Assembly: GCA_964019415.1 (NCBI GenBank)
Contig: OZ025876.1
Span: forward strand, 8,159,245 to 8,223,244
Reading direction: 5' to 3'
Source: Ianthella basta
Lineage: Eukaryota; Porifera; Demospongiae; Verongiida; Ianthellidae
DNA: 64,000 nt
In this document: in pieces, positions 6,385 to 64,000 of the stretch
Layout of the letters: the number at the start of each line of letters is the position of its first letter
How positions within the stretch are numbered: the stretch's first letter is position 1
Program-made: the position numbers and the translations under genes
Notes under the pieces: generated by a model
What the model saw: only the letters and a program-made list of their open reading frames with translations
What the model was told of the DNA's origin: nothing
Databases searched by the model: none

Positions 6385-6398
6385 AAAAATGGCGGACG
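6385..6398 (+). promoter_or_regulatory. YY1-like motif at the element's 5' edge, overlapping the start codon
   Basis: The first bases of the element read AAAAATGGCGGACG (counting the last base shared with the junction), close to the YY1 consensus AANATGGCGGC. The ATG inside it is the ORF start, with A at -3 and G at +4, a strong initiation context. In human L1 a YY1 site near +13 positions transcription initiation; a similar role here is inference. The motif AAAATGGCGGACG also occurs in the exon-like stretch at 61874-61886. Confidence 0.35.
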
Positions 6399-9358
6399 CG
6401 GAGCTGTCGCGAGATGAAGAGGAAGATGAAGATGAAGAGGAAGCTGAAGCGCAACCGTCTAGAGGAGGAAGCCAAAGTGCCATCTGTGCAGTTTGTGGCA
6501 GGGTCCTTACGTTGACGAAGGCTGGATTAGTCCGAACCCATGGCCCTCTTGGCAACCGCTGCCCCGGTTCGCGCGCGCCACCTGATGCGAGCGGCGCCCC
6601 CCTTACTGCTCTCACTGAAGATGTACGAGCACCTCAGCTGCCAGCACATGGGGATGATGACTACCCTCAGCACACACTGCCCAAGCCCCGGGTTAAGCCT
6701 ATACGGAGGATCCCGCGCGCATCCCGAGAACTTGCCGCCAAGAAATTCACCTCCATAATCGAGGCTGTAGTAGCCAACCCCGCCAACGTACCTGCTTGGG
6801 ATCGTCTTTTTCGTTTCAGCTCTCGCTGCCTACGAGCCCCAAGCCGGGGTGGCCGTCGGCAGAACCTAGTCAGGGTCTTCAACGAACAAATCAGGGTAGA
6901 ATCGGATCCTTCAGCCCTTCCATCACCCAGTAATCCGCAGAGCCGCCGGAAGCACCAGAAAGTGCGAGACTCAATGGAATCACTCGCCGGACTTGTTGCC
7001 TCCAAACTGGAGGAAGGCGACTTCAAGGGTGCAGTCCGCCTAGCCTGCTCAGAAGACTCCATTGCTAGTCAGAATGACAGTACCCTAGAGGCTCTTAGAC
7101 GGAAGCACCCCGCACCACACCCCGACTCCCAAATGCCACCTCCTTCTGAGGAATTCAGCCGCTGCCCCACTGTGTCAGAGGAGGAAGTTGCCCAAGCGAT
7201 TCGTTCTTTCCCGAATGGCTCTGCAGGGGGGCCAGATGGCTTAATGCCACAGCACCTCAAGGACATGACCGGAGCCTCTGCAGAGAGCGGGGGTCCAGTG
7301 TTACTGTCAGCACTCACTGCCCTGGTCAACATCATTCTCCAAGGCAAAGTTCCAAGGACAGTCCGGCCACTTTTCTTCGGCGCCAACCTTACAGCCCTCA
7401 CAAAGAAGGATGGAGGGGTGAGACCTATCGCAGTTGGTTGCACCCTCCGCCGGCTTGCAGCAAAGTTAGCAGGGAGGTGCGTCATGGATGCCATGGGAGA
7501 GCTCTTGGCCCCGCGCCAGTTGGGGTATGGCACCAAACTAGGCTGCGAGGCTGCAGTTCATGCAACCCGCCTCTACTTGAGTAACCTTCAGCCTGGCCAA
7601 GTCATCCTCAAGCTGGACTTTCAGAATGCCTTTAACTGCATCCGCCGTGACAAGATGATACAGGCTGTGAGCATTCTGGCTCCAGAGCTTACCCCTTTTG
7701 TTCATGCCTCTTACAGTGAACCTTCCTCACTTTTCTGGGGAGAGACCTCCCTCATGTCATCGGAAGGCGTACAGCAAGGTGACCCCCTTGGTCCCTTGCT
7801 CTTCTGCCTCACCATCCACAAGCTCACCTCCCAGCTGGGGTCTGAATTTTGCCTTTTCTACCTTGACGATGGGACCCTAGGTGGAGATGCTGAACAGGCC
7901 CTTCAGGACCTGCGTTTGGTGGAGCAAGGTGCAGGAGAGCTAGGTCTCTCCTTGAACCATGCGAAGTCTGAGGTCATCAGTAAAGACCCTGCTGCCACAG
8001 GTACCTTACTTGCTGCAGCTCCCAACCTCCAGGTGACTGACCCAGACTCTGCCACCCTCCTGGGTTCCCCCCTTGGCGGCATTGACAGCATCAATGAGTC
8101 CATCCGTGACAAGGTGGAATGCCTGAGAATCTTGGGTAACAGACTCGAGCACCTTCACACTCAAGACTCCCTCCTCCTCCTCCGCCACTCCCTAGCAATC
8201 CCGAGACTGTCATACATCCTCCGAACCTCTCCTTGTTTCCTTTCTGCAGAGCTCCGAGTTTATGATGATCTGCTGAAGTCCATCACTAGTAGCATCACCA
8301 ACAACTCTCTCCAGAGCTCAGTCACAGCGTGGTCCCAGGCCTCCCTCCCAGTCAAGAATGGTGGACTGGGCATCAGGAGTGCAGTCCAGCTTGCGCCCTC
8401 TGCCTTTCTGGCATCTGCTGCTGGCTCCTCCACCCTAGTTGCCCAGATTATCCCCAGGCACTTGCGGAAGTTCCCAATCGTTGCCAGGGAGGAGGCATTC
8501 AGTTGCTGGTCACAAGGACACCACAACCCTCCCCCACCCGACTCAGTATCCCACCGCCAGAGAGAATGGGACTCCCCAAGAGTTAAAGCCTCAGCCCAAG
8601 CCCTACTTGAGGATGCCCCAGATGCAAGATCCCGTGCCCGCCTCCTAGCTGCCAGCAGAAAGGAGTCTGGTGCCTGGCTGAATGCCCTCCCAGTATCAAC
8701 CCTGGGGCTACGCTTGGATGACGAGACAACGCGTGTGGCTGTGGGCCTCAGACTCGGCACACCTCTCTGCCGTCCACATGAATGCAGTAATTGTGGAACC
8801 ATGGTGGATGACCTGGCCACCCACGGCCTCAGCTGCCGTTTCAGTGAAGGCCGACATCCCCGCCATGCAGCTGTCAACTGCATTATTCAGAAGGCTTTGA
8901 CTTCAGCCAGGGTACCTTCCAGGTTGGAACCATCGGGACTGTACAGGTCTGATGGGAAGCGCCCTGATGGTTGCACCATCCTGCCATGGAAGGCAGGGAA
9001 GGTATTAGTATGGGATGCCACATGTCCGGACACTTACGCGCCCTCCCACATCTCCGCTGCAGCCAAAGGAGCAGGTGCAGTGGCTGCACAAGCCGAGCAC
9101 TTGAAGATTTCAAAGTATGCTCACCTTGAATCGAGCCACCTTTTCGTGCCAATTGCAGTGGAGACATCAGGTGTGCTGGGCCAAGCAGCACTAGACTTTG
9201 TGAGCGACCTAGGACAACGTCTCCATCAGGTGACTGGAGAAGCTAGAAGCAAGGAATACCTCCTGCAGAAGCTGTCAATAGCTATCCAGCGGGGGAATGC
9301 GGCAGCAGTGCTCGGTACTGCTGAGAAAGACAGGTATCAGGATCCCTTCTGGGATTAA
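6389..9358 (+). CDS. Retrotransposon polyprotein: zinc finger, reverse transcriptase, restriction-like endonuclease
   Basis: 989 codons, uninterrupted. Residues 1-20 are acidic. A C2HC finger follows (C33, C36, H51, C58), a likely DNA-binding domain. The reverse transcriptase spans about 270-670: PNGSAGGPDG near 276, motif A with D410 (LKLDFQNAF), motif B EGVQQGDPLGP at 459, catalytic YLDD at 491-494, and thumb-like KNGGLGI at 656. The C-terminal part has a CCHC finger (C799, C802, H812, C816), an RH pair near 822, then RPDG (D860) and VWDAT (D876), matching the PD-(D/E)XK-like endonuclease of R2-type elements. No apurinic endonuclease or RNase H domain is seen. The start is ATG 6389; the in-frame codon at 6374-6376 is a stop, so no longer N-terminus is possible. 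All catalytic motifs look intact. The product should nick target DNA and prime cDNA synthesis there (established for R2). The exact clade is not assigned. Confidence 0.94.
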   Translation: MADAELSRDEEEDEDEEEAEAQPSRGGSQSAICAVCGRVLTLTKAGLVRTHGPLGNRCPGSRAPPDASGAPLTALTEDVRAPQLPAHGDDDYPQHTLPKPRVKPIRRIPRASRELAAKKFTSIIEAVVANPANVPAWDRLFRFSSRCLRAPSRGGRRQNLVRVFNEQIRVESDPSALPSPSNPQSRRKHQKVRDSMESLAGLVASKLEEGDFKGAVRLACSEDSIASQNDSTLEALRRKHPAPHPDSQMPPPSEEFSRCPTVSEEEVAQAIRSFPNGSAGGPDGLMPQHLKDMTGASAESGGPVLLSALTALVNIILQGKVPRTVRPLFFGANLTALTKKDGGVRPIAVGCTLRRLAAKLAGRCVMDAMGELLAPRQLGYGTKLGCEAAVHATRLYLSNLQPGQVILKLDFQNAFNCIRRDKMIQAVSILAPELTPFVHASYSEPSSLFWGETSLMSSEGVQQGDPLGPLLFCLTIHKLTSQLGSEFCLFYLDDGTLGGDAEQALQDLRLVEQGAGELGLSLNHAKSEVISKDPAATGTLLAAAPNLQVTDPDSATLLGSPLGGIDSINESIRDKVECLRILGNRLEHLHTQDSLLLLRHSLAIPRLSYILRTSPCFLSAELRVYDDLLKSITSSITNNSLQSSVTAWSQASLPVKNGGLGIRSAVQLAPSAFLASAAGSSTLVAQIIPRHLRKFPIVAREEAFSCWSQGHHNPPPPDSVSHRQREWDSPRVKASAQALLEDAPDARSRARLLAASRKESGAWLNALPVSTLGLRLDDETTRVAVGLRLGTPLCRPHECSNCGTMVDDLATHGLSCRFSEGRHPRHAAVNCIIQKALTSARVPSRLEPSGLYRSDGKRPDGCTILPWKAGKVLVWDATCPDTYAPSHISAAAKGAGAVAAQAEHLKISKYAHLESSHLFVPIAVETSGVLGQAALDFVSDLGQRLHQVTGEARSKEYLLQKLSIAIQRGNAAAVLGTAEKDRYQDPFWD

Positions 9359-52348: not shown

Positions 52349-52414
52349 CCTAAGAATGCGCCGAAACCGCACGGTCCAAGCTTGTGTAAACAAAGCTGCC
52401 ATAACCCACATGCG
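52349..52414. other. Junction segment between satellite and retroelement fragment
   Basis: 66 bases that are neither satellite nor recognisable retroelement coding sequence. They contain TGTGTAAACAAA, which also occurs near the left end of the 58181-61351 element, but this is too short to assign. The satellite ends just before it in a degraded monomer. Confidence 0.4.
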
Positions 52415-54099: not shown

Positions 54100-55610
54100 T
54101 TTTCTTTTCCCCCCCAGGGTTATCCCAATATCACATCTGATGCATTCTTATTGTTTCGGTTAGAATCAGTTTTTTTTCAAAAATGGGCCACCTTTTGGGC
54201 CAAAGTGGCCCAAAGGGTGGCCCATTTTCTGGAAACCCTCGCATGTGGGACATGTCCTATGTAAACAATGTGGGGCGATTTTTGACCTTCCTATATTTGC
54301 TTGTAGCTCCTACAGGGTGTGTTCGTACGAAGTCAAAGAAGTGCCGAGAGGAAGATCAAACACTGCTCTTTAAATGTATGCACGATTTCTGTTAACCAAG
54401 CCTGGCTGCGCTAAGATATGTCGCCGAATACAAAGCCATCTAAAAAGCCGAAAACTTCGATGTGGCGCTCGAGGGAATCTCTGAGGGAGAAACGGAAAGC
54501 ATAGCCCTGTTCCTACGCGGACCCTCTAACCGCATGCATAGTTACTAAATCAATCCTAACAAAAGTTATATGGAGAAAACTAACTTTCATTTCTCCCGTG
54601 ACAGGTTTCATGCCTTGAAACTCCACACAGGAACCGACTTTGCTCTATGCATGCGGTGAAATTTTAGATAATTTTCTTCACTTTCGGAAGCATCCTTCAA
54701 TGCGCCTCTAACTGAACTTCTCGAATGCCACACGACGTTCTCGTGATGGCACTCGTTCCAGCCTTCCATGATGGCCAGGACCCGTGACGATCTCGTGATC
54801 TCCTATATATGGTATACACAACGGAAGCAATCATATGACGTCATGAAACGTTCGCTGTCCTCAAAAAGCGAGATTTCTTTGCATAAAAGAACGAAACGTC
54901 GATCACTTCGAAGTTTGAGAACGGAGAAGACATCAGCTGTGCTTTCTTCTTACCAGAATTCTCTCTAGTCGTCTGAAACTTTGTTCCGCGCTGTCGCCGG
55001 ATATGACGTTCGATTTCTCTGGCCTCACGAATCACGCACACATCACATGCAGTGCAAGCGTAGCCATGGCAACACAGGAATTTCACACCTAAAGGTGTGA
55101 ATACCTCAAAGTGCACGTTATGTAAACGAACATGTCCCACAAGCGCTGCAATATTACCTTGTATAGTTGATCTTTGTCAGACAAGATGTCAGGAGTCCTC
55201 TGGGGCAAGAAAGGAAAATGGGCGTCTTTGGCCAAAAATGGTGGCCCATTTTTGAAACCCTGCAATTTTACCCCAACTGGTAGATCTGTGTCAGATATGA
55301 TGTCAGGAGTCTCCTGGGATAAAAATGAATAATGGACCACTATGGCCCAACAGGGTGGGCCATTTTTGGAAACCCTACAATTTCACCCCATAATGTAAAT
55401 CTATGTCAGACATGCTGTCAAGAGTCCTCAGGGCCAATAAACAAAATAGGTCACTTCGGCCCATTTTTAGGCCAAAGTGACCCATTTTCCTTTTTGCCCC
55501 AGGGGACTCTTGAAAGCATTTCTGATGCAAATTTACCATTTTGTGTAAACTTGCAGGGTTTCCAAAATTGGGCCATCTTTTAGGCCACTCCCAAAGTGGC
55601 CCATTCGTTC
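54100..55610. repeat. GGCC-rich dispersed unit, five copies in both orientations
   Basis: A 115-125 bp unit with GGAAACCCTGCAATTTTACC, then GTCAGATATGATGTCAGGAGTC, a CTGGGG run and AATGGGCCACTTTGG-type ends (a few bases vary between copies). Forward copies lie at 54231 (interrupted by the TIR element and resuming at 55146), 55251-55345 and 55369-55450. Reverse copies lie at about 54105-54185 and 55497-55575. The ends carry many TGGCCCA/TGGGCCA motifs, several forming inverted pairs. It may be a small transposable element or a complex repeat; I do not recognise the family. Confidence 0.7.
54240..55145. mobile_element. 906-bp TIR element (short relative of the 3.17-kb element)
   Basis: It begins CGCATGTGGGACATG and ends in the complement of CGCTTGTGGGACATG, a 15-base terminal inverted repeat with one mismatch. 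Sub-terminal TATGTAAAC motifs lie near both ends, and the right sub-terminal region (TCACG..CACAC, then AGCCATGGCAAC) resembles the right end of the 58181-61351 element. It splits a GGAAACCCTGCAATATTACC copy of the surrounding repeat; intact copies at 55251 and 55369 show the empty site, implying a 2-bp CT duplication (54238-54239 and 55146-55147). It holds no transposase. A 28-codon basic ORF at 54418-54504 and a TGACGTCA site near 54836 are present, with uncertain meaning. Confidence 0.75.
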
Positions 55611-56558: not shown

Positions 56559-56610
56559 CCCTAACCCTAACCCTAACCCTAACCCTAACCCTAACCCTAA
56601 CCCTAACCCT
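56559..56610. repeat. Interstitial telomeric repeat (CCCTAA)8
   Basis: Eight perfect CCCTAA units plus CCCT with no interruption: the C-rich strand of the TTAGGG animal telomere repeat. As non-telomeric sequence lies on both sides it is internal, either a relic of chromosome-end repair or fusion, or a subtelomeric tract. The C-rich strand on plus would correspond to a left chromosome end. Confidence 0.95.
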
Positions 56611-56769
56611 GCGCAAGCAAGGCAAACCCTGCGCATGCAAAGCAAACGTACCTTGCTCGTGGCTTTGGCGGCCATTTTCCTTTGAATATGACGTAATGCA
56701 CCATCTTACTATAATTATATAATGCACCGAATCTCGGATTTTTATGTTTGTTTGCAGGGAATAGGCTCG

Positions 56770-56864
56770 AGACGCTCCGTGCCAGTTGAAAGACTCGGGG
56801 GCAGGTTGTTAGAAGGGTGCCGTTCGCCTAGCTGCCTTGCGGCCGAAAAGTGAGATGTCCTTCG
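56770..56864 (+). repeat. Diverged partial copy of the 817-bp unit's 5' part
   Basis: The stretch GCCAGTTGAAAGACTCGGGG through CTAGCTGCCTTGCGGCCGAA parallels GCCAGTTAAGAGAGTGGGAG through CTAGCTGCCCTGCAGCCGAA inside the 817-bp unit (near 56952). It appears to be an older duplication preceding the recent one. A TGACGTAA motif lies upstream at 56689-56696. Confidence 0.6.
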
Positions 56865-57681
56865 TCAATTCGCCGCGGGCCGAAGCGCCATTTTCGAAAT
56901 TATCGACCGGCCTTACCGCTACCGGTCATTGGTGGACTTGATACGAGCCATGCCAGTTAAGAGAGTGGGAGTACCTGAGCTTAGAGGGGTGCCGCTTACC
57001 TATAGCTGCCCTGCAGCCGAAGAGATCGCTTCCTTTTTTTTTTTTTTTACCGCGGGCCGAGACCCCATTTTTAATTATCCGTCTCTACGATTTTCGGTGA
57101 CGGGAGATCTTATTCGTTGTCGGCAAACGTTCGATTTAAGCTCTACCGTCGTTATAGCAGCCAGCCTCAGTTGCTACCTGTACAGGTAGTTCAAACTGGC
57201 AAGGGGCCGACTCGCTGGCTTGCAATAGGCTGGGAACCTGCCCATATATACGGCGGGCATTCAGCTAGTATGACGTAATGCAGCCAGTAGGGCTTGGCAC
57301 GTGACTTTGGCTGTCGGAGGAATAATATAAATGCCCATACATGCCAGGTTCTGCTTGCAGCAGCTCCTATCCCCCAATACTTAAGCTGCTGTTTTTGGCC
57401 TTCAACATTGTACAAGGAAAGTGGGATTTAAATAGGCAATTCTTGCATGGTACACTTGCCAGGGCATGCTCCAGCCAAGATTGCAAAAACCAGCAAGATG
57501 CGGCCCTTCCTGACCAAACTGCTGTGCCCCGCCCACAGGCCCCAAATGCATATTTTCAGGTCTTTTACTATGGCATGGTCGCACCTGCACGCAATGCAGT
57601 GGTGCCATGATGTAGTAGCACATCAGGGCTACAGCATGCTGCATTCGTGGGGAGTGCACGTCCAATTCGCAGGTTGATGAG
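56865..57681 (+). repeat. 817-bp tandem unit, copy 1 (uninterrupted)
   Basis: It begins TCAATTCGCCGCGGGCCGAA and ends GGTTGATGAG. The second copy starts immediately at 57682 and differs at only a handful of positions: a T15 run at 57034-57048 against T6 in copy 2, and a few substitutions. This copy contains the undisturbed CTATCCCCCAATACTTAAG site at 57368-57386 into which the TIR element inserted in copy 2. Its right part has open frames on both strands (57341-57610 plus, 57402-57707 minus); neither has a recognisable domain, and the copies are too alike to test for coding constraint. Confidence 0.9.
57271..57331 (+). promoter_or_regulatory. Promoter-like cluster in 817-bp unit copy 1
   Basis: TGACGTAA (CRE/ATF type) at 57271-57278, CACGTG E-box at 57298-57303 and TATAAA at 57326-57331, in the order and spacing of a polymerase II promoter pointing right. 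A transcript would start near 57355 and run into the right part of the unit. Binding and initiation are inferred from motifs only. Confidence 0.4.
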
Positions 57682-58180
57682 TCAATTCTCCGCGGCCGAA
57701 GCGCCATTTTCGAAATTATCGACCGGCCTTACCGCTACCGGTCATTGGTGGACTTGATACGAGCCATGCCAGTTAAGAGAGTGGGAGTACCTGAGCTTAG
57801 AGGGGTGCCGCTTACCTAGCTGCCCTGCAGCCGAAGAGATCGCTTCCTTTTTTACCGCGGGTCGAGACCCCATTTTTTAATTATCCGTCTCTACGATTTT
57901 CGGTGACGGGAGATCTTATTCGTTGTCGGCAAACGTTCGAATTAAGCTCTACCGTCGTTATAGCAGCCAGCCTCAGTTGCTACCTGTACAGGTAGTTCAA
58001 ACTGGCAGAGGGCCGACTCGCTGGCTTGCAATAGGCTGGGAACCTGCCCATATATACGGCGGGCATTCAGCTAGTATGACGTAATGCAGCCAGTAGGGCT
58101 TGGCACGTGACTTTGGCTGTCGGAGGAATAATATAAATGCCCATACATGCCAGGTTCTGCTTGCAGCAGCTCCTATCCCC
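57682..58180 (+). repeat. 817-bp tandem unit, copy 2, left piece
   Basis: Near-identical to 56865-57375, then cut by the TIR element within the run of C bases. It continues at 61352. Confidence 0.9.
58077..58137 (+). promoter_or_regulatory. Promoter-like cluster in 817-bp unit copy 2
   Basis: The same TGACGTAA (58077-58084), CACGTG (58104-58109) and TATAAA (58132-58137) arrangement as copy 1. The TIR element inserted about 45 bases downstream of the TATA motif, so any transcript from here would now enter the left end of that element. Confidence 0.4.
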
Positions 58181-58275
58181 CGCATGTGGAACATGTCTGT
58201 GTAAACAAACACCTTTAGCTATGTAAACAGGCCGAAATGTCCTATGTAAACAATGCGCGGCAGATTTTCATGTTG

Positions 58276-58294
58276 TTATTTTCTCTTATTCTTC
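58276..58294 (-). other. Candidate second coding exon of the CCCH gene
   Basis: After the acceptor-like TTATCTGCAG the minus strand reads GAAGAATAAGAGAAAATAA. Joined in phase to the donor at 58749/58748 it gives a short basic tail and a stop. The polypyrimidine tract is weak and there is no expression evidence. Confidence 0.3.
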
Positions 58295-58744
58295 CTGCAG
58301 ATAACATCGAATCAGAACACTCCAAGCGCGAGCTTAAAGTTGAACTATATTATTAACATCTTACGTACGGTACCTACAAATAAATGTCTTTCATTACGAG
58401 AAATGTCGCTGTGCACGAAGTATGAAAATTATTATTAAATGGTGATTCAGGTCTAGAGGTAAAGGCTGAGCGAGGAACAGAGAACGCAGTATGATGCACC
58501 TTCATGCACTCTAACTTTTCCATGTGGGGGGTTTTACTAAAACATTCTGCTAGTAAGTTACATAAAGAAAACTAAATTCGCTGCGATCAAGGACAACTTT
58601 CGGTCAAGCTAACTTCTTTTGAGAACAAGGAATAAAAACCCCCCAAATGGAGATCCTAGATAATGTCTTTGCCAAGGTAAAGCAGCCTTTGTCGCACCGT
58701 ATTCTTTCTTTCCCTGCACCTGATCGGCGTTCTTGTAAGAGCAC

Positions 58745-59215
58745 TCACCCGAGAGCCCGTGTCTCGTGACTGGCTCGTGACATTTCACCTGAGGTACTCA
58801 ACGGAAGTAAATCGTCATAATACGTCGACGCTGGAAACTGTCCGCCGTTGGGCAACTGAAACTCGCTTGGCCTGCAGACCTCTTCTGCCTCGCCGCCTGT
58901 CCAGTGCACGTATGGACAAGACTCTCTGGTACAGTCCGGGAAAGCGTAACAAAGCTTGTACGGCTTCATCTTTCCAACCAGGTACTTTTCCGGCAAATGC
59001 CGAAAGTGGCATTGCCCGGACGGTCTCTTGCACGCTTCCTGCCAGAAGCAGATGCGCTGGTCGGTCTTGGGCTTTTTTGCCTTTTTGGTTTGATTCTTGC
59101 CCTTCATTGCCCCGCTGTAAGCGCGCTTTCTTTGCTCGTCTGGTCCTTGGAAAATAACTATGTTGCCGTATACGTTATGGAAATGAGCACCACTGGGCGT
59201 AGAGGATTTAGACAT
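58745..59215 (-). CDS. CCCH zinc-finger protein, first exon (two Nab2/ZC3H14-spaced fingers)
   Basis: A 156-residue frame on the minus strand. A basic NLS-like stretch lies at 39-50 (KGKNQTKKAKKPK). Finger 1 is C56-x5-C62-x6-C69-x3-H73 and finger 2 is C89-x5-C95-x4-C100-x3-H104, the spacing of RNA-binding CCCH fingers in the Nab2/ZC3H14 group. The rest is not recognised. The frame ends in TGA inside a strong donor site, CGG-GTGAGTG, with the intron starting at 58748, so the stop is probably intronic. A candidate acceptor CTGCAG at 58300-58295 would add KNKRK and a TAA at 58278-58276 (intron 454 bp); this second exon is tentative. A TATA box lies 53 bases upstream of the ATG. The product is likely a nuclear RNA-binding protein (inference). 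Its location inside a TIR element makes it either captured cargo or an element-encoded accessory gene. Confidence 0.6.
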   Translation of the reverse strand: MSKSSTPSGAHFHNVYGNIVIFQGPDEQRKRAYSGAMKGKNQTKKAKKPKTDQRICFWQEACKRPSGQCHFRHLPEKYLVGKMKPYKLCYAFPDCTRESCPYVHWTGGEAEEVCRPSEFQLPNGGQFPASTYYDDLLPLSTSGEMSRASHETRALG

Positions 59216-59266
59216 TGTGTACTCTGCTAGCTAGTAGTCTGAGTGAGCCACTACAGTACCAGTGGC

Positions 59267-59274
59267 TCTTTATA
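59267..59274 (-). promoter_or_regulatory. TATA box of the CCCH zinc-finger gene
   Basis: TATAAAGA on the minus strand, 53 bases upstream of the ATG at 59215. With initiation about 30 bases downstream the 5' leader would be only some 20-25 bases. A good match in the right position, but not experimentally supported. Confidence 0.5.
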
Positions 59275-59665
59275 CAGGGACCAGAATGTCTAGGTATGGC
59301 CAAATGAAATCATAGTTCTTTTTGTGCTTACCTGTATTGTGATCTGTTCATTATTCATTGTGTATGTGTAATCCTCTGTGAATTCTCATCCTTGATCATG
59401 TATGATCATGGTTGTGTTTTAGTCACAGCATCATGACCTATGAAGAATCCATCACCCCATTGTCTCCACCTGTCATCCTGCATGATCACCAGCTGTTTAT
59501 CATGTGAATCTGGGCTGCCTTTGCATCAGTACAATCATGTATAACACTAGGCAGATGCATAGCATAGCATCGTGGGGCAAGCCTGAGCGAGTGAAGCCAG
59601 GGTGGTGCAGATATTGGCTGCACACATGAGTGTAGCTAACCCTATGTCAGGAAATTTTTTCCCTA

Positions 59666-59730
59666 TCATGTCAAGTTCTAAACGCTGTCATTCATTTGTG
59701 TTACCATGGTACATAGACCACCTTAATTAG
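59666..59730 (+). repeat. Diverged direct repeat, copy 1
   Basis: About 65 bases, from TCATGTCAAGTTCTAAACGC to CACCTTAATTAG, similar to 59951-60013 (about 285 bases downstream). Between them lies a nested hairpin at 59765-59810: TGTGGG/CCCACA outside and GGCTCTA/TAGAGCC inside. No coding potential is seen. Confidence 0.6.
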
Positions 59731-59950
59731 CATTTCCGAGTGTCACTGATTAGTCTGTGCCCGGTGTGGGAGTTTCAAAGGAGGCTCTAGCTGGATAGAG
59801 CCTGCCCACATCGGTATATAGGAGGGAATGGATCAGTGGCTGTTGGCGGTGACCAGTGACCTGGCTGCTAAAAGGTCGGCTAAAGATCTGGAGGTTGCCA
59901 GTGCTGGTCCGGTTCACTGCCATATTTTCCCTTCCCCCCTTCATTCCTTA

Positions 59951-60013
59951 CCATGTGTAGTTTCGAACGTTGTCTTTCATTCGTGTCAACATGATACAGA
60001 GCATCTTAATTAG
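59951..60013 (+). repeat. Diverged direct repeat, copy 2
   Basis: The second copy, from CCATGTGTAGTTTCGAACG to GCATCTTAATTAG. Similarity to copy 1 is around three quarters by eye. The pair may mark ends of an older insertion within the TIR element. Confidence 0.6.
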
Positions 60014-60247
60014 GAAATTAAAATGCTTGTAATAATTATATCGCAAGAGTGTGCAAAGAGCTGCAGCATGACATCTGTCTGAGACGTCTGCATGAAAGGG
60101 GCTGGATTTAGCTGATATATTTTTGATCATTTGTGCATGTGTGCGATGCATATGTGTATAGTAATTCCACTACAACTCCTTGCTATAGTCAATTGCAAAG
60201 TACATAATTTTTGTCACATATTAGTGGCCATTAAATATACCATGGTA

Positions 60248-60314
60248 CTCCAGTGCAAACGACACACAGTGTGTGTTTCGGCCAATACCAGGCCATCATC
60301 AGGTTTGCTGGGAG
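60248..60314 (-). ncRNA. Hammerhead-like self-cleaving ribozyme, minus strand
   Basis: Read on minus: stem I 5' strand CTCC..GCAAAC (60314-60303), core CTGATGA (60302-60296), stem II GGCC/GGCC (60294-60291 with 60283-60280), GAAA (60279-60276), stem III of six pairs (60276-60271 with 60267-60262), then the cleavage triplet GTC ending at 60261 and the stem I 3' strand GTTTGC..GGAG (60260-60248). Core residues and all three stems are present, with stem I open-ended (type I). The weak point is an extra T (60295) between the core and stem II. Such ribozymes occur in Penelope-like and retrozyme elements, but none is recognised around it. Confidence 0.6.
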
Positions 60315-60627
60315 TTTGTGAATGTAAACACTACTAAATATTTGCAAGGTAATACGGTAACATACTAGGGGCTCATTAAAGTACTAAAAGTGGGAACAAA
60401 ATCAACTATTATATATGGTAGTGCCACATGGCATACCACAGCTCACATAATATTATGGAGGACACACTGTTAACAGTGCATACACAGAAACACACAGTAT
60501 GCAATACAGCACACTCTGGTACAAACACATGCCATAAAATGCTTGTAAGACAAGATATACAGGGCAAATTAAATCACAGCTCAGACACTATCAGCCAGGT
60601 GCATGCTGCATTGAGACACACACTGTA

Positions 60628-60840
60628 CTGTGAAACCTGTCTAACATGATCACTGTATAAGGCATCCACCTCTCCATAAAACAGCCAGCCTCCCTGGCCC
60701 CAAATAGCACAAAAACGCTGTGTAAAGCACCCACCTCTCTATGCAAGTCGGCTATAACTGGCCCTCAGGTAGTTGTCCTAGACAGGCTCTACTCATAGAT
60801 AGAGGAAGAAGAAGGTTCTTCCTCTATCTATGCTCTACTG
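60628..60840. mobile_element. MITE-like segment with inverted ends
   Basis: The left end CTGTGAAACCTGTCTAACA and the complement of the right end CAGTAGAGCCTGTCTAGGACA share C-W-GT-R-R-A-R-CCTGTCTA. The interior has paired CCACCTCTC motifs at 60667 and 60731. A TA precedes the left end. The general look is that of small pogo/Tigger-type elements, but there is no coding sequence and no clear duplication on the right, so the family is a guess. It is interrupted by the 39-bp palindrome. Confidence 0.4.
60787..60839. repeat. 39-bp perfect hairpin flanked by 7-bp direct repeats
   Basis: A 17-base arm (60794-60810), five-base loop GAAGG, and perfectly complementary arm (60816-60832), bracketed by CTCTACT at 60787-60793 and 60833-60839. 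It looks like a very small insertion with target duplication, or a snap-back repair product. Confidence 0.85.
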
Positions 60841-61351
60841 CACACAGTACACACCGTCACAGACACGCAAATTCGTGCGCAAACGATGGCACAGACACAT
60901 AAACACAGACAAACTTGCCAGGGATACGCAGTACGAAGTACTAGGTTAGCAGACACGTAGAGACACGATGTGTGAAGCTATGTAGCTTACCTCAATACCT
61001 TGGCTGCGAGCGTGCCTTGCTTCGCCTTCGCGATCACCTACACGCGAACTCGGCTCCTGGTTACCTTCAAGCTTAGCCCGAAGATCAGATTCTTGGGTTC
61101 TACGCAGTACTTACTCTCTAGATCTTCCATCAAGGACAACGTTCCCTTCGCGTGTACACGGCCTACGGATGTGACGTTCTACGTGACGTTTTGCTCTGCG
61201 CATCCGGTTAGTTCTTCAGTCACGCGCACACCACGCATTCTAAGGCGGTGAAGCATGCGTAACCACGGCAACTCGGATACAGTGCGCAACCGCAGTGTTC
61301 ATAGCTATGTAAACAGCTATGTCAACTTTAGGTGGTCATGTCCCACATGCG

Positions 61352-61660
61352 CCCAATACTTAAGCTGCTGTTTTTGGCCTTCAACATTGTACAAGGAAAG
61401 TGGAATTTAAATAGGCAATTCTTGCATGGTACACTTGCCAGGGCATGCTCCAGCCAAGATTGCAAAAACCAGCAAGATGCGGCCCTTCCTGACCAAACTG
61501 CTGTGCCCCGCCCACAGGCCCCAAATGCATATTTTCAGGTCTTTTACTATGGCATGGTCGCACCTGCACGCAATGCAGTGGTGCCATGATGTAGTAGCAC
61601 ATCAGGGCTACAGCATGCTGCATTCGGGGGGAGTGCACGTCCAATTCGCAGGTTGATGAG
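61352..61660 (+). repeat. 817-bp tandem unit, copy 2, right piece
   Basis: Continues the unit interrupted at 58180, from CCCAATACTTAAGCTGCTG to GGTTGATGAG. It differs from 57373-57681 at about two positions (an A for T near 61404 and a G for T near 61627). Confidence 0.9.
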
Positions 61661-61863
61661 GTCCAAAATTACATAAAATCCTTTTCAACAATCCACAAGG
61701 GTCAACAAAGGAAGTGCATTTTTATATCATTGGTGTTCACACTTAGCATGGAGTGCGCCTGCCAGTTTGCAGCCCTTCAGTGCGCGCAGAGCATCTGCTG
61801 CAGGCCTTAAAAGCTTCCCCTAGTGAAGGGCTATGTTGGATAATCATATTCATACCCCTGCAA
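61661..61863. other. Unassigned spacer
   Basis: About 200 bases between the duplicated unit and a candidate first exon. No gene, repeat or RNA is recognised; it may hold the upstream promoter of the exon-like segment. Confidence 0.4.
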
Positions 61864-61958
61864 GATGAACAAAATGGCGGACGTTTGAGGCGCTTTTGGA
61901 TTTTTGATTTGAGATGGGCTTGAGCCGCGTTCGAGGGAGGCTCCTTCTCAAGTATCAG
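61864..61958 (+). other. Candidate first exon with YY1-like start and splice donor
   Basis: AAAATGGCGGACG (YY1-like) at 61874-61886 is followed about 70 bases later by a strong donor, TATCAG-GTAAGC, with the GT at 61959. The first ATG gives a four-codon frame ending in TGA; a second ATG (61914) gives MGLSRVRGRLLLKYQ up to the donor. Many animal housekeeping genes have YY1-type motifs at the start of transcription, so this could be the 5' end of a gene to the right. No downstream exon is recognised in the window. Confidence 0.35.
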
Positions 61959-62160
61959 GTAAGCAACTACTCTATCACTATGCTTTCTTTCGTTATTATT
62001 TTGGTATTAAGATTCTTACTGTTATGATTTCGTTATAATGGTCTTGAACCCTTTTTCTACTCATCACCATTAGTTGCATGACCTGTTTATGTTTGCTGAA
62101 CTGATTGCTTGGTAGCAATAATGTTTATGTCTTCAGAGTCTCGTCTTATATTGATTATTA
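61959..62160. other. AT-rich spacer, possibly intronic
   Basis: Follows the candidate donor. There is no coding signal. It ends in ATTATTA immediately before the Helitron-like TC terminus. Confidence 0.35.
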
Positions 62161-62219
62161 TCTAATCTAATATATAAAGCCGAAATTGTCTGTCTGTGTG
62201 TTCGCGATAACCGCCCGCT
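62161..62219 (+). mobile_element. Helitron-like 5' terminus
   Basis: TCTAATCTAATATATAAAGC followed by CGAAATTGTCTGTCTGTGTG and TTCGCGATAACC. A preceding A and a TC start followed by a TATAAAGC-GAAxTTGTCTGTCTGT string resemble 5' ends of animal Helitrons and their non-autonomous relatives, which often carry central tandem repeats and microsatellites, as here. No convincing CTRR 3' end with hairpin was located, so the right limit is unknown. Confidence 0.35.
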
Positions 62220-63016
62220 GGTTTGCTGTAGTCATTGGACATTTCCTCCCTCTGTACCAAGGCAGTTTGTATTGGGCATTTGCTGGCTCACCTGCTTGAA
62301 GACGGCAAGCAGTTGAGCCAGCAGAAGCCCAATACAAACTTGAGAGTTGTACGTGGTTTGCTGTAGTCATTGGACATTTCCTCCCTCTGTACCAAGGCAG
62401 TTTGTATTGGGCATTTGATGGCTCACCTGCTTGAAGACGGCAAGCAGTTGAGCCAGCAGAAGCCCAATACAAACTTGAGAGTTGTACGTGGTTTGCTGTA
62501 GTCATTGGACATTTCCTCCCTCTGTACCAAGGCAGTTTGTATTGGGCATTTGCTGGCTCACCTGCTTGAAGACGGCAAGCAGTTGAGCCAGCAGAAGCCC
62601 AATACAGACTTGAGAGTTGTACGTGGTTTGCTGTAGTCATTGGACATTTCCTCCCTCTGTACCAAGGCAGTTTGTATTGGGCATTTGATGGCTCACCTGC
62701 TTGAAGACGGCAAGCAGTTGAGCCAGCAGAAGCCCAATACAAACTTGAGAGTTGTACGTGGTTTGCTGTAGTCATTGGACATTTCCTCCCTCTGTACCAA
62801 GGCAGTTTGTATTGGGCATTTGATGGCTCACCTGCTTGAAGACGGCAAGCAGTTGAGCCAGCAGAAGCCCAATACAAACTTGAGAGTTGTACGTGGTTTG
62901 CTGTAGTCATTGGACATTTCCTCCCTCTGTACCAAGGCAGTTTGTATTGGGCATTTGATGGCTCACCTGCTTGAAGACGGCAAGCAGTTGAGCCAGCAGA
63001 AGCCCAATACAAACTT

Positions 63017-63018
<2 letters not shown>
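62220..63018 (+). repeat. Six tandem 135-bp repeats, each containing a long hairpin
   Basis: Units start at 62220, 62355, 62490, 62625, 62760 and 62895; the last is cut short by the GT tract. They are almost identical, varying chiefly at TTTGCTGGCTCA against TTTGATGGCTCA and at one AATACAGACTT in unit 3. As 135 is a multiple of three, the minus strand shows a 312-codon open frame of 45-residue repeats, but this follows from the repeat and is not taken as a gene. Each unit is a 77-base hairpin plus a 58-base spacer. Confidence 0.95.
62264..62340 (+). ncRNA. Pre-miRNA-like hairpin (first of six)
   Basis: 14 pairs (62264-62277 with 62127+200, i.e. 62327-62340), a 3x3 internal loop, 10 pairs (62281-62290 with 62314-62323), one mismatch, then 7 pairs (62292-62298 with 62306-62312) and a seven-base loop. 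That is 31 paired bases in 77 nt, the size and shape of an animal microRNA precursor, repeated every 135 bases; four of the six copies have one extra A-G mismatch. It may equally be a transposon structure that can form cruciform DNA. No small-RNA evidence is available. Confidence 0.4.

Positions 63019-63070
<52 letters not shown>
63019..63070 (+). repeat. (GT)26 microsatellite
   Basis: 26 uninterrupted GT units that begin exactly where the sixth 135-bp unit should continue with AGTTGTACGT, so the tract grew from, or replaced, the end of that unit. Confidence 0.97.
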
Positions 63071-63072
<2 letters not shown>

Positions 63073-63080
63073 GAATTTCA

Positions 63081-63151
63081 GGGTATGCTGCACTGATGAG
63101 ACCAAAACAGGTCGAAACTATGGCATACTCATGCCATAGTCTGCAGTTCCC
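63081..63151 (+). ncRNA. Hammerhead ribozyme (type I), plus strand
   Basis: All conserved elements are present in order: stem I 5' strand GGG..CTGCA (63081-63092), core CTGATGA (63093-63099), stem II GACC/GGTC (63100-63103 with 63110-63113, six-base loop), GAAA (63114-63117), stem III of ten perfect pairs (63117-63126 with 63131-63140, loop ACTC), and cleavage triplet GTC ending at 63141, followed by the stem I 3' strand TGCAG..CCC (63142-63151) with an internal loop suited to loop-loop contact. Predicted self-cleavage is after C63141. In animals such ribozymes process transcripts of repeats and small retroelements; here it lies just 3' of the hairpin array and GT tract. Confidence 0.85.
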
Positions 63152-63214
63152 TGCAATTGATGCCATATTTGTGCATGACGATTGTGCTTGTGCTTGTCTG
63201 ATGCATTTGTGTGG

Positions 63215-63234
63215 TTGTGTGTGTGTGTGTGTGT
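63215..63234 (+). repeat. (TG)10 microsatellite
   Basis: Ten TG units in a TG-rich context (63182-63234). Confidence 0.9.
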
Positions 63235-63355
63235 TCTGCCTTCCTCTGCTGCAGTACTCTGAAGCCTGCATGGTGACCATGGCTGGATTAGCCATGCCAA
63301 GTGCCAATGCTTTTAAACAAGGACTATCTAGTCACACGATTATACCACACGCACA

Positions 63356-63356
<1 letters not shown>

Positions 63357-63438
<82 letters not shown>
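63357..63438 (+). repeat. (CA)41 microsatellite
   Basis: 41 uninterrupted CA units, preceded by an imperfect CACACGCAC start and followed by CATGCACGCACGCACAC-type decay to about 63470. Opposite strand sense to the GT tract 300 bp upstream. Confidence 0.97.
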
Positions 63439-63439
<1 letters not shown>

Positions 63440-63510
63440 CCATGCACGCACGCACACACACGCACAACACATCATTTTATACCATTGGTCTGACTGGTTC
63501 GTGTGCATTG

Positions 63511-63567
63511 CTTGTCTCATCTTGCCTCATATTGTCTCGTCTTGCTTCATCTTGTCTCATCTTGCCA
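63511..63567 (+). repeat. Short 10-bp tandem repeat resembling the satellite sub-unit
   Basis: Successive 10-mers CTTGTCTCAT, CTTGCCTCAT, ATTGTCTCGT, CTTGCTTCAT, CTTGTCTCAT, then CTTGCCA. They parallel the satellite sub-units CTTGCCTAAT/CTTGCTTAAT, with TCAT in place of TAAT, and lie 11 kb from the array edge on the same strand. Confidence 0.7.
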
Positions 63568-63765
63568 GCATCTTCCTTCAGGTTCCAGTTCAGCCATGTT
63601 TGGAGTGAACTATTTTTACAGCTTTTTAACATTAACTGAAATAATTCGATATGTAATTTATTTTAATTTATTTTTTTGTAACAATGTAATAATGTAACAA
63701 TACTGTTTACTTTTACATTTAAATATAATTATGGAATATTGTATATGTCTGTATTGTATATGCAT
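63568..63765. other. AT-rich spacer
   Basis: T-rich sequence with short TAACAATGTAATAATG-like repeats. No gene recognised. Confidence 0.5.
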
Positions 63766-63797
63766 GGGGGCAGGTGGGGGGCTTAGGGGAAAAGGGG
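63766..63797 (+). other. G-quadruplex motif
   Basis: Four G runs of 5, 6, 4 and 4 separated by loops CAGGT, CTTA and AAAA: a textbook intramolecular quadruplex pattern on the plus strand. Confidence 0.8.
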
Positions 63798-64000
63798 ATG
63801 CATGCAATCAGTCATGCCCATGTACACGTATTGCCTTTCCTTTCCTTGCATGGCATGCTCATGTGCATTCTCATGCATTGACCTTAATGCATGGAGCACG
63901 CGTGTGGGCATGTACCAAACTCATCGTGGATGCATCAAATCGCATCCGCCCATGTGCAATCGTGTTGGGCGTGACTCCATCATGCGTGGGATGGATCCAT
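63798..64000. other. CATG-rich terminal segment
   Basis: About eleven CATG/GCATG occurrences in 200 bases, several in palindromic GCATGC or ATGCAT contexts. No ORF of note and no recognised element; the sequence runs off the window. Confidence 0.4.

Follow-up and report, generated by a model that had tools for sequence, protein, structure and literature searches.

The window analysed here is a stretch of 64,000 nucleotides (G000:C9:8159245-8223244) from the genome of Ianthella basta, which is assembled as 209 Mb in 96 contigs with TTAGGG telomeres. On its plus strand lies a type I hammerhead ribozyme of a family called A below, the full motif of which, outer stem I included, spans 63079..63153 and is backed by its core, its fold and covariation. 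Pattern matching places the core box CUGAUGA at 63093..63099 and the core GAA at 63114..63116. Stem-loop II (63100..63113, GACC, loop AAAACA, GGUC; strands 63100-63103/63110-63113) and stem-loop III (63117..63140, ten pairs and the loop ACUC; strands 63117-63126/63131-63140) are both supported by fold and covariation, and stem I pairs 63087-63092 with 63142-63147, its outer part joining 63079-63083 to 63149-63153. Cleavage 3' of C17 is established hammerhead chemistry; C17 is here the plus-strand base 63141, and a plus-strand transcript should self-cleave after it. The initial annotation had described the core bases, the three stems, the ten-pair stem III and the site at C63141, all of which were found where it had placed them, and its assignment to the type I class is correct, in that the core, three stems open at stem I and covariation all agree with it.

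The hammerhead is both the minimum free energy (MFE) and the centroid fold of its sequence (-35 kcal/mol, z -5.14), and none of 200 shuffles folded as well. A loose core pattern matched the window twice, and 100 shuffles of the window gave no match. The initial annotation had also named a sub-threshold covariance-model score as evidence against a hammerhead, and formally this is what we obtained. The motif stays below the Rfam gathering cut-offs, with sub-threshold scores of 26.8 bits for Hammerhead_HH9 (cut-off 52, E 5.9e-4) and 30.6 bits for RAGATH-1-hammerhead (cut-off 56.3, E 0.013) in the 2,001 bases searched, and nothing in the window or in eight related loci reached a gathering score. 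We do not take these scores as a refutation because of the strong covariation among the relatives of the motif. Judged by structure and covariation, it is a genuine hammerhead, which we assign to no particular Rfam family.

These relatives are numerous. With 100 bases of the window as query, 54 candidates were retrieved, and the best 40 of these 54 were scored; each of the 40 has at least 95% identity. A strict core pattern, TGCACTGATGAGN{8,16}GAAAC, has 386 matches in the genome (178 plus, 208 minus; 100 of the 386 were listed by place), against none for the reversed pattern used as control. In the loci that we fetched, four subtelomeric families could be distinguished, namely A, to which the window copy belongs, B, C and D; beyond them there are a family E and single interstitial copies. 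Stem III has 9-11 pairs in families A, B and C. A model built from A and B recovers C, D, E and all six fetched interstitial copies with E-values of 3.4e-10 or better. In the alignment of the families (31 rows, 24 distinct), 97.0% of the cells are paired, as compared with at most 39.7% when the stem partners are slid out of register, and both sides have changed in 17 of the 25 pairs; this alignment was fitted to the structure and the pairing figure therefore leans favourable, though the margin is still large. Without constraint, the MFE structure is the hammerhead in three of the six interstitial copies (L056, L057, L061) and not in L058, L059 and L060, nor in the family E copy L051; the model detects all seven.

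Families A, B, C and D are found mostly near contig ends, in arrays. On 13 contigs of known length, the ribozyme points outward in 21 of 25 copies of A and 23 of 31 of C, and inward in 21 of 25 copies of B and 10 of 13 of D. The counts for A and B are drawn from the best 40 of 54 and the best 42 of 67 candidates, respectively, and the subset of C used for orientation holds about one entry per array (43 entries for 158 matches). Family C advances in tandem steps of 150 bp.

In the window, the ribozyme sits in a cassette of about 145 bp (63071..63216, plus strand) that is common to other contexts and has GT repeats on both sides, (GT)26 on its 5' side (63019..63070) and (GT)n on its 3' side (63217..63234), with a (CA)n tract further downstream (63346..63471). 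The same arrangement, a piece of about 145 bp between GT repeats, is seen for family A in the seven loci displayed. Comparison of the flanks at ten loci yielded three contexts without mutual match: the window type (L002, L005, L007 and L009, with L010 as a partly matching variant of the unit W described below), a YR1 type (L012, L021, L030) and a third one (L013, L017). A fourth context had been counted and was withdrawn when the flank comparison made L010 a W variant. As for family B, in one GT tract it is present in three of four readable copies and absent from the other. The cassettes lie within GT microsatellites. Among eight distinct A cassettes (49 were read, some of them one place fetched twice), variable positions amount to 0/11 in the core, 4/50 in paired positions, 2/14 in loops and 8/50 in the tail. 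Pairing is kept at all four variable paired positions; in the same eight cassettes, the excess of invariance of the ribozyme over the tail is not significant (p 0.13).

The cassette is part of a larger unit, W, which occupies 56611..64000 on the plus strand, begins with GCGCAAGCAAGGC and continues past the window, its YR3 recombinase-like match lying at G000:C9:8228071-8228825. On the left, it abuts telomere-type repeats, (CCCTAA)8 at 56559..56610, in the orientation opposite to that of the right telomere. W-type units recur near several contig ends, and stretches of the window unit match the copies on C18, C2 and C7 at 96-100%, except for a nested insert (58181..61351). The left end starts with GCGCAAGC after CCCTAACCCT in four of five readings (the exception is L040), and after the right end, CAGCTAGTCACCCT, two of three readings have a CCCTAA joint that leads into the next W, and L041 has different sequence there. 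Between A and YR3, W copies elsewhere harbour one or two D ribozymes on the opposite strand; on C9, where 16 of 16 candidates were scored, no D ribozyme was found. Directly upstream of the GT tract, repeat analysis delineates a hairpin array with a 135-bp unit repeated 5.9 times (62219..63019). We considered this array as the carrier of the ribozyme and rejected it: it has few copies in the C18 unit and more in that of C7, and since family A also occurs without it, the cassette is separate from the array. Diverged half-hairpin matches (75-80% over about 50 bases) are also present in YR1 units. The initial annotation had regarded the neighbouring repeats as an undescribed carrier; within the literature searched the carrier is indeed undescribed, but the hairpin array is not that carrier and constitutes one module of W.

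The nested insert of W, 3.2 kb long and missing from the C18 copy (L034), has 15-bp terminal inverted repeats that are 93% complementary. Within it, on the minus strand, lies the second loose-core match of the window (60261-60302), which folds into a hammerhead in which an additional U precedes stem II. As 30 of 200 shuffles fold equally well (z -1.04) and no Rfam hammerhead match covers 60247-60315, we list 60247..60315 as a second, probably degenerate hammerhead-like fold. An ORF of the insert matches CCCH zinc fingers weakly, at scores below cut-off, and the short inverted ends of the insert (CGCATGTGG..) are the same as those of a smaller one at 54240-55145.

The units encode a protein in which the motifs GR.KE, DxKTxK, LRS.F, MRH and YDRR are invariant over three sequences. 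We read these as a putative catalytic R-K-R-H-Y pattern, from which the protein is a putative tyrosine recombinase. In Pfam, NCBIfam, PHROGs and PDB, the only match in favour was a weak one to Phage_int_SAM_5, below cut-off (E 0.029) and located N-terminally, as expected; a comparison of profiles with those of Cre and lambda Int (probability 3.6%) gave no support, and no relative was confirmed in viral contigs or in prokaryote genome contigs. The protein has 148 matches in the genome, 109 of which were used; the rows set aside were unclear or second exons, and some of these are interstitial on C2. These 109 were sorted by identity into four gene families, YR1 to YR4. On contigs of known length, 59 of the 61 used matches are within 300 kb of a contig end and two are far inside C2, as are some of the rows left out; short contigs contain further matches. 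Among the hammerheads listed, the one closest to the gene within 9 kb on its upstream side is divergent from it in 74 of the 109 cases and on the same strand in nine; in the remaining 26, no listed hammerhead lies in that range. The ribozyme family tracks the gene family, A or C going with YR1, C with YR2 and YR4, and D with YR3. Two unit types, one of which is that of the window's A copy, carry a hammerhead on the strand of the gene. All 109 places go back to a few unit types in multiple copies and represent only about three independent arrangements. Related units measure 8-12 kb and stand in tandem. No reverse transcriptase match was obtained for six W and YR4 ORF pieces and three YR1 ORFs that were scanned, none was recognized by eye in the other listed unit ORFs, and none was linked to the ribozyme cassettes.

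The ends of the units are fixed at TTAGGG, and the units form head-to-tail arrays in the loci read. In 11 of 11 readings, TTAGGG comes before the AGTGAAACG with which the YR1 unit (7.95 kb) starts, the neighbour being YR1 itself, another unit or telomeric arrays; the right end of the unit, GGGCCCGGGT, is followed by TTAGGG (as TTTAGGG) in seven of seven; the latter pattern was an exact string, so that the variant of L042 is uncounted. Likewise, the right end of the C/B unit, CGACCACAAGG, is followed by TTAGGG in six of six readings, and this unit repeats at 8,925 bp in L050. Ten contig ends were read. TTAGGG-type repeats are present at three of them (the left and right ends of C2 and the right end of C9); the other seven (C6, C10 and C20 left; C7, C18, C19 and C23 right) break off within units and lack telomere repeats. 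On C2, the right end (L043) shows a C/B unit succeeded by telomere-like repeats and, within 0.9 kb, by a run of 198 TTAGGG units. At the right end of C9 (L044:8208-9984), CCCTAA repeats are closely followed by the terminal TTAGGG repeats, in a head-to-head arrangement.

In YR1, the joint falls inside an intron of about 246 bases of the recombinase-like gene (e.g. L036:4023-4047), with a donor GTGAGT after the exon ending in KWIEW and an acceptor CATCCAG before the catalytic exon, both splice sites having been identified by eye. A lone copy would therefore have its gene split between its two ends, and the gene would be made whole again only in a circle or, by splicing, next to a tandem neighbour. 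The YR3 and YR4 genes are not interrupted in this manner in the copies read.

A different carrier was found with family E. A 19-base probe for this family has 13 places. Twelve of them group into six inverted pairs, with a span of exactly 7,283 bp in five cases and of 8,733 bp in the sixth. They correspond to six copies, with matching ends, of an element with a hammerhead in each inverted repeat, on C2, C3, C6, C14, C15 and C22 (L051-L055). A 561-base probe matches the 12 places over 547-561 bases at a displayed identity of 100%, and in the C3 copy 292 bases outside the ribozyme differ by one base between the two ends, which gives the inverted repeat a length of about 0.8 kb or more. In this element of about 7.3 kb, the ribozyme lies within each terminal inverted repeat and points inward. 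The six-copy comparison covers the ends; the coding content comes from the readable half of the C3 copy, which encodes pieces matching the integrase family rva_4 (E 6.7e-5 with 23.1 bits for a cut-off of 26, and E 0.076). On the strength of this below-cut-off match, we consider the element as putatively integrase-like.

The closest known systems are the animal retrozymes as regards the ribozyme and the TATE elements of trypanosomatids as regards the carrier. According to the available text of PMC7229834, animal type I hammerheads in repeats of 150-450 bp are retrozymes, and the non-LTR retrozymes of animals share with the present case type I hammerheads in small repeats and many families per genome. 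Family C, with its 150-bp step, falls within this range and has the tandem repeats of retrozymes, unlike the window's family A, which consists of single cassettes; A, B and D occur inside larger mobile units, as cassettes within GT/CA tracts or next to them, and not as dimers or multimers. Single cassettes such as A cannot by themselves yield circles. TATE elements, as described in the available text of PMC6681497, are recombinase-bearing, clustered in tandem and inserted at a fixed place in telomeric hexamers. A fixed junction together with tandem arrangement was likewise found for YR1 and C/B units in the fetched loci, W being less clean. The reverse transcriptase of TATE has no counterpart in the unit ORFs scanned or read, and the likeness is thus one of workings and not of class membership. 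The units also have hammerheads, whereas the word ribozyme is absent from the available text of the TATE paper (PMC6681497).

Two further comparisons concern the recombinase and the split of its gene. SSV-type archaeal viral integrases have their attachment site inside the recombinase gene, which is split upon integration. A split by the attachment site is suggested for YR1 as well, with the difference that the YR1 site is in an intron, which would let tandem neighbours restore the gene by splicing. Cryptons are eukaryotic DNA elements with a tyrosine recombinase and without reverse transcriptase. The likeness to the present units resides in a putative tyrosine recombinase and in the lack of a reverse transcriptase match among the ORFs scanned or read; here there are in addition telomere repeats, arrays and ribozymes. 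Cryptons are named in PMC6681497, and the literature searched yielded no description of hammerheads within Cryptons or DNA transposons.

Altogether, we consider it probable, with some reserve, that retrozyme-like cassettes have been caught up in, and multiplied by, telomere-joining mobile units, which carry a genuine type I hammerhead. The cassettes of about 145 bp would probably have spread into GT microsatellites via RNA and reverse transcription, like animal retrozymes, and would have been caught up in mobile DNA units near chromosome ends and multiplied by these. The units themselves would probably join TTAGGG by site-specific recombination through the putative tyrosine recombinase that they encode. 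As for the W ribozyme, its most likely present effect would be co-transcriptional cleavage of the unit's non-coding RNA. Passive carriage is to us the most likely status of the cassettes, the main rival being a role in the element's own RNA.

This rival supposes that the hammerheads are integral, selected parts of the units, cutting an outward or antisense transcript from a divergent recombinase promoter and so keeping antisense RNA from the next copy or the telomere. The divergent placement in 74 of 109 cases, the tracking of gene family by ribozyme family, the pairing kept at all four variable paired positions of family A and the presence of a ribozyme in both inverted repeats of the unrelated element of about 7.3 kb would all fit such a role. 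On the other hand, with about three independent arrangements, a shared orientation could arise by chance in 1 in 4 to 1 in 8 cases; two unit types, including that of the window's A copy, also bear a hammerhead on the same strand as the gene; and the 26 cases without a hammerhead are uncertain, since they refer only to the hammerheads listed. We therefore regard a selected role as possible and on balance doubtful.

Penelope-like elements and Terminons carry minimal hammerheads (PMC7229834, available text); these are in terminal repeats, and Terminons attach to telomeres next to the hammerhead (PMC6431247, available text). One could thus see in the present hammerheads the remains of such retroelements, as hammerheads occur together with C-rich telomeric repeats in the rotifer Terminons, which form tandem arrays at chromosome ends (PMC6431247, available text). 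The likeness extends to the hammerhead and, for Terminons, to the association with telomeres; those are, however, reverse-transcriptase elements with minimal motifs (PMC6431247, available text), and here the scanned W, YR4 and YR1 ORFs gave no reverse transcriptase match, the rest being judged by eye, while stem III reaches 9-11 pairs in A, B and C. Moreover, of 56 placed copies of A and C, 44 are directed outward on the TTAGGG strand, opposite to what we would expect of a Terminon-type template, and we hold this origin to be quite unlikely. That the motif might be a chance or decayed look-alike is suggested by its scores below the Rfam cut-offs; given the covariation over families, the 386 matches against none in the control and the shuffles, it appears extremely improbable.

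Starting again from cassettes carried by mobile units, the interest of the system lies in its carriers. Hammerheads are widespread among animal genomes and have been described, in the literature available in part to us, in retroelements, satellites, a few introns and RNA circles, whereas here they are in DNA elements, one kind of which is apparently aimed at telomeres. If this reading of the carrier is true, animals gain a telomere-specific recombinase element, one family of which has a natural split-gene control, and the retention of a self-cutting RNA near chromosome ends becomes testable. A more far-reaching proposal would be that the hammerheads are working parts of at least two unrelated classes of DNA transposons and cut the RNA, non-coding or leader, of these elements, one class, with the tyrosine recombinase, being specific for telomeric TTAGGG, with an intact YR1 gene only in a circle or tandem array, and the integrase element having one ribozyme per inverted repeat; taken jointly, we put this forward as a tentative possibility. 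In any case, the ribozyme families of this genome form a natural set in which covariation is rich.

Outside this genome, phage records yielded nothing beyond a 23-base match. In viral contigs, 53 stretches (L062-L114) match the strict hammerhead core, three of them twice. Finally, the remainder of the window contains, at 1-52348, a 52-kb array of a 35-bp satellite. Within this array lies an intact reverse-transcriptase ORF of 989 aa (6389-9358; RVT_1, E 1.9e-19), and a related C-terminal fragment seems, by eye, to begin at the right edge of the array near 52349.
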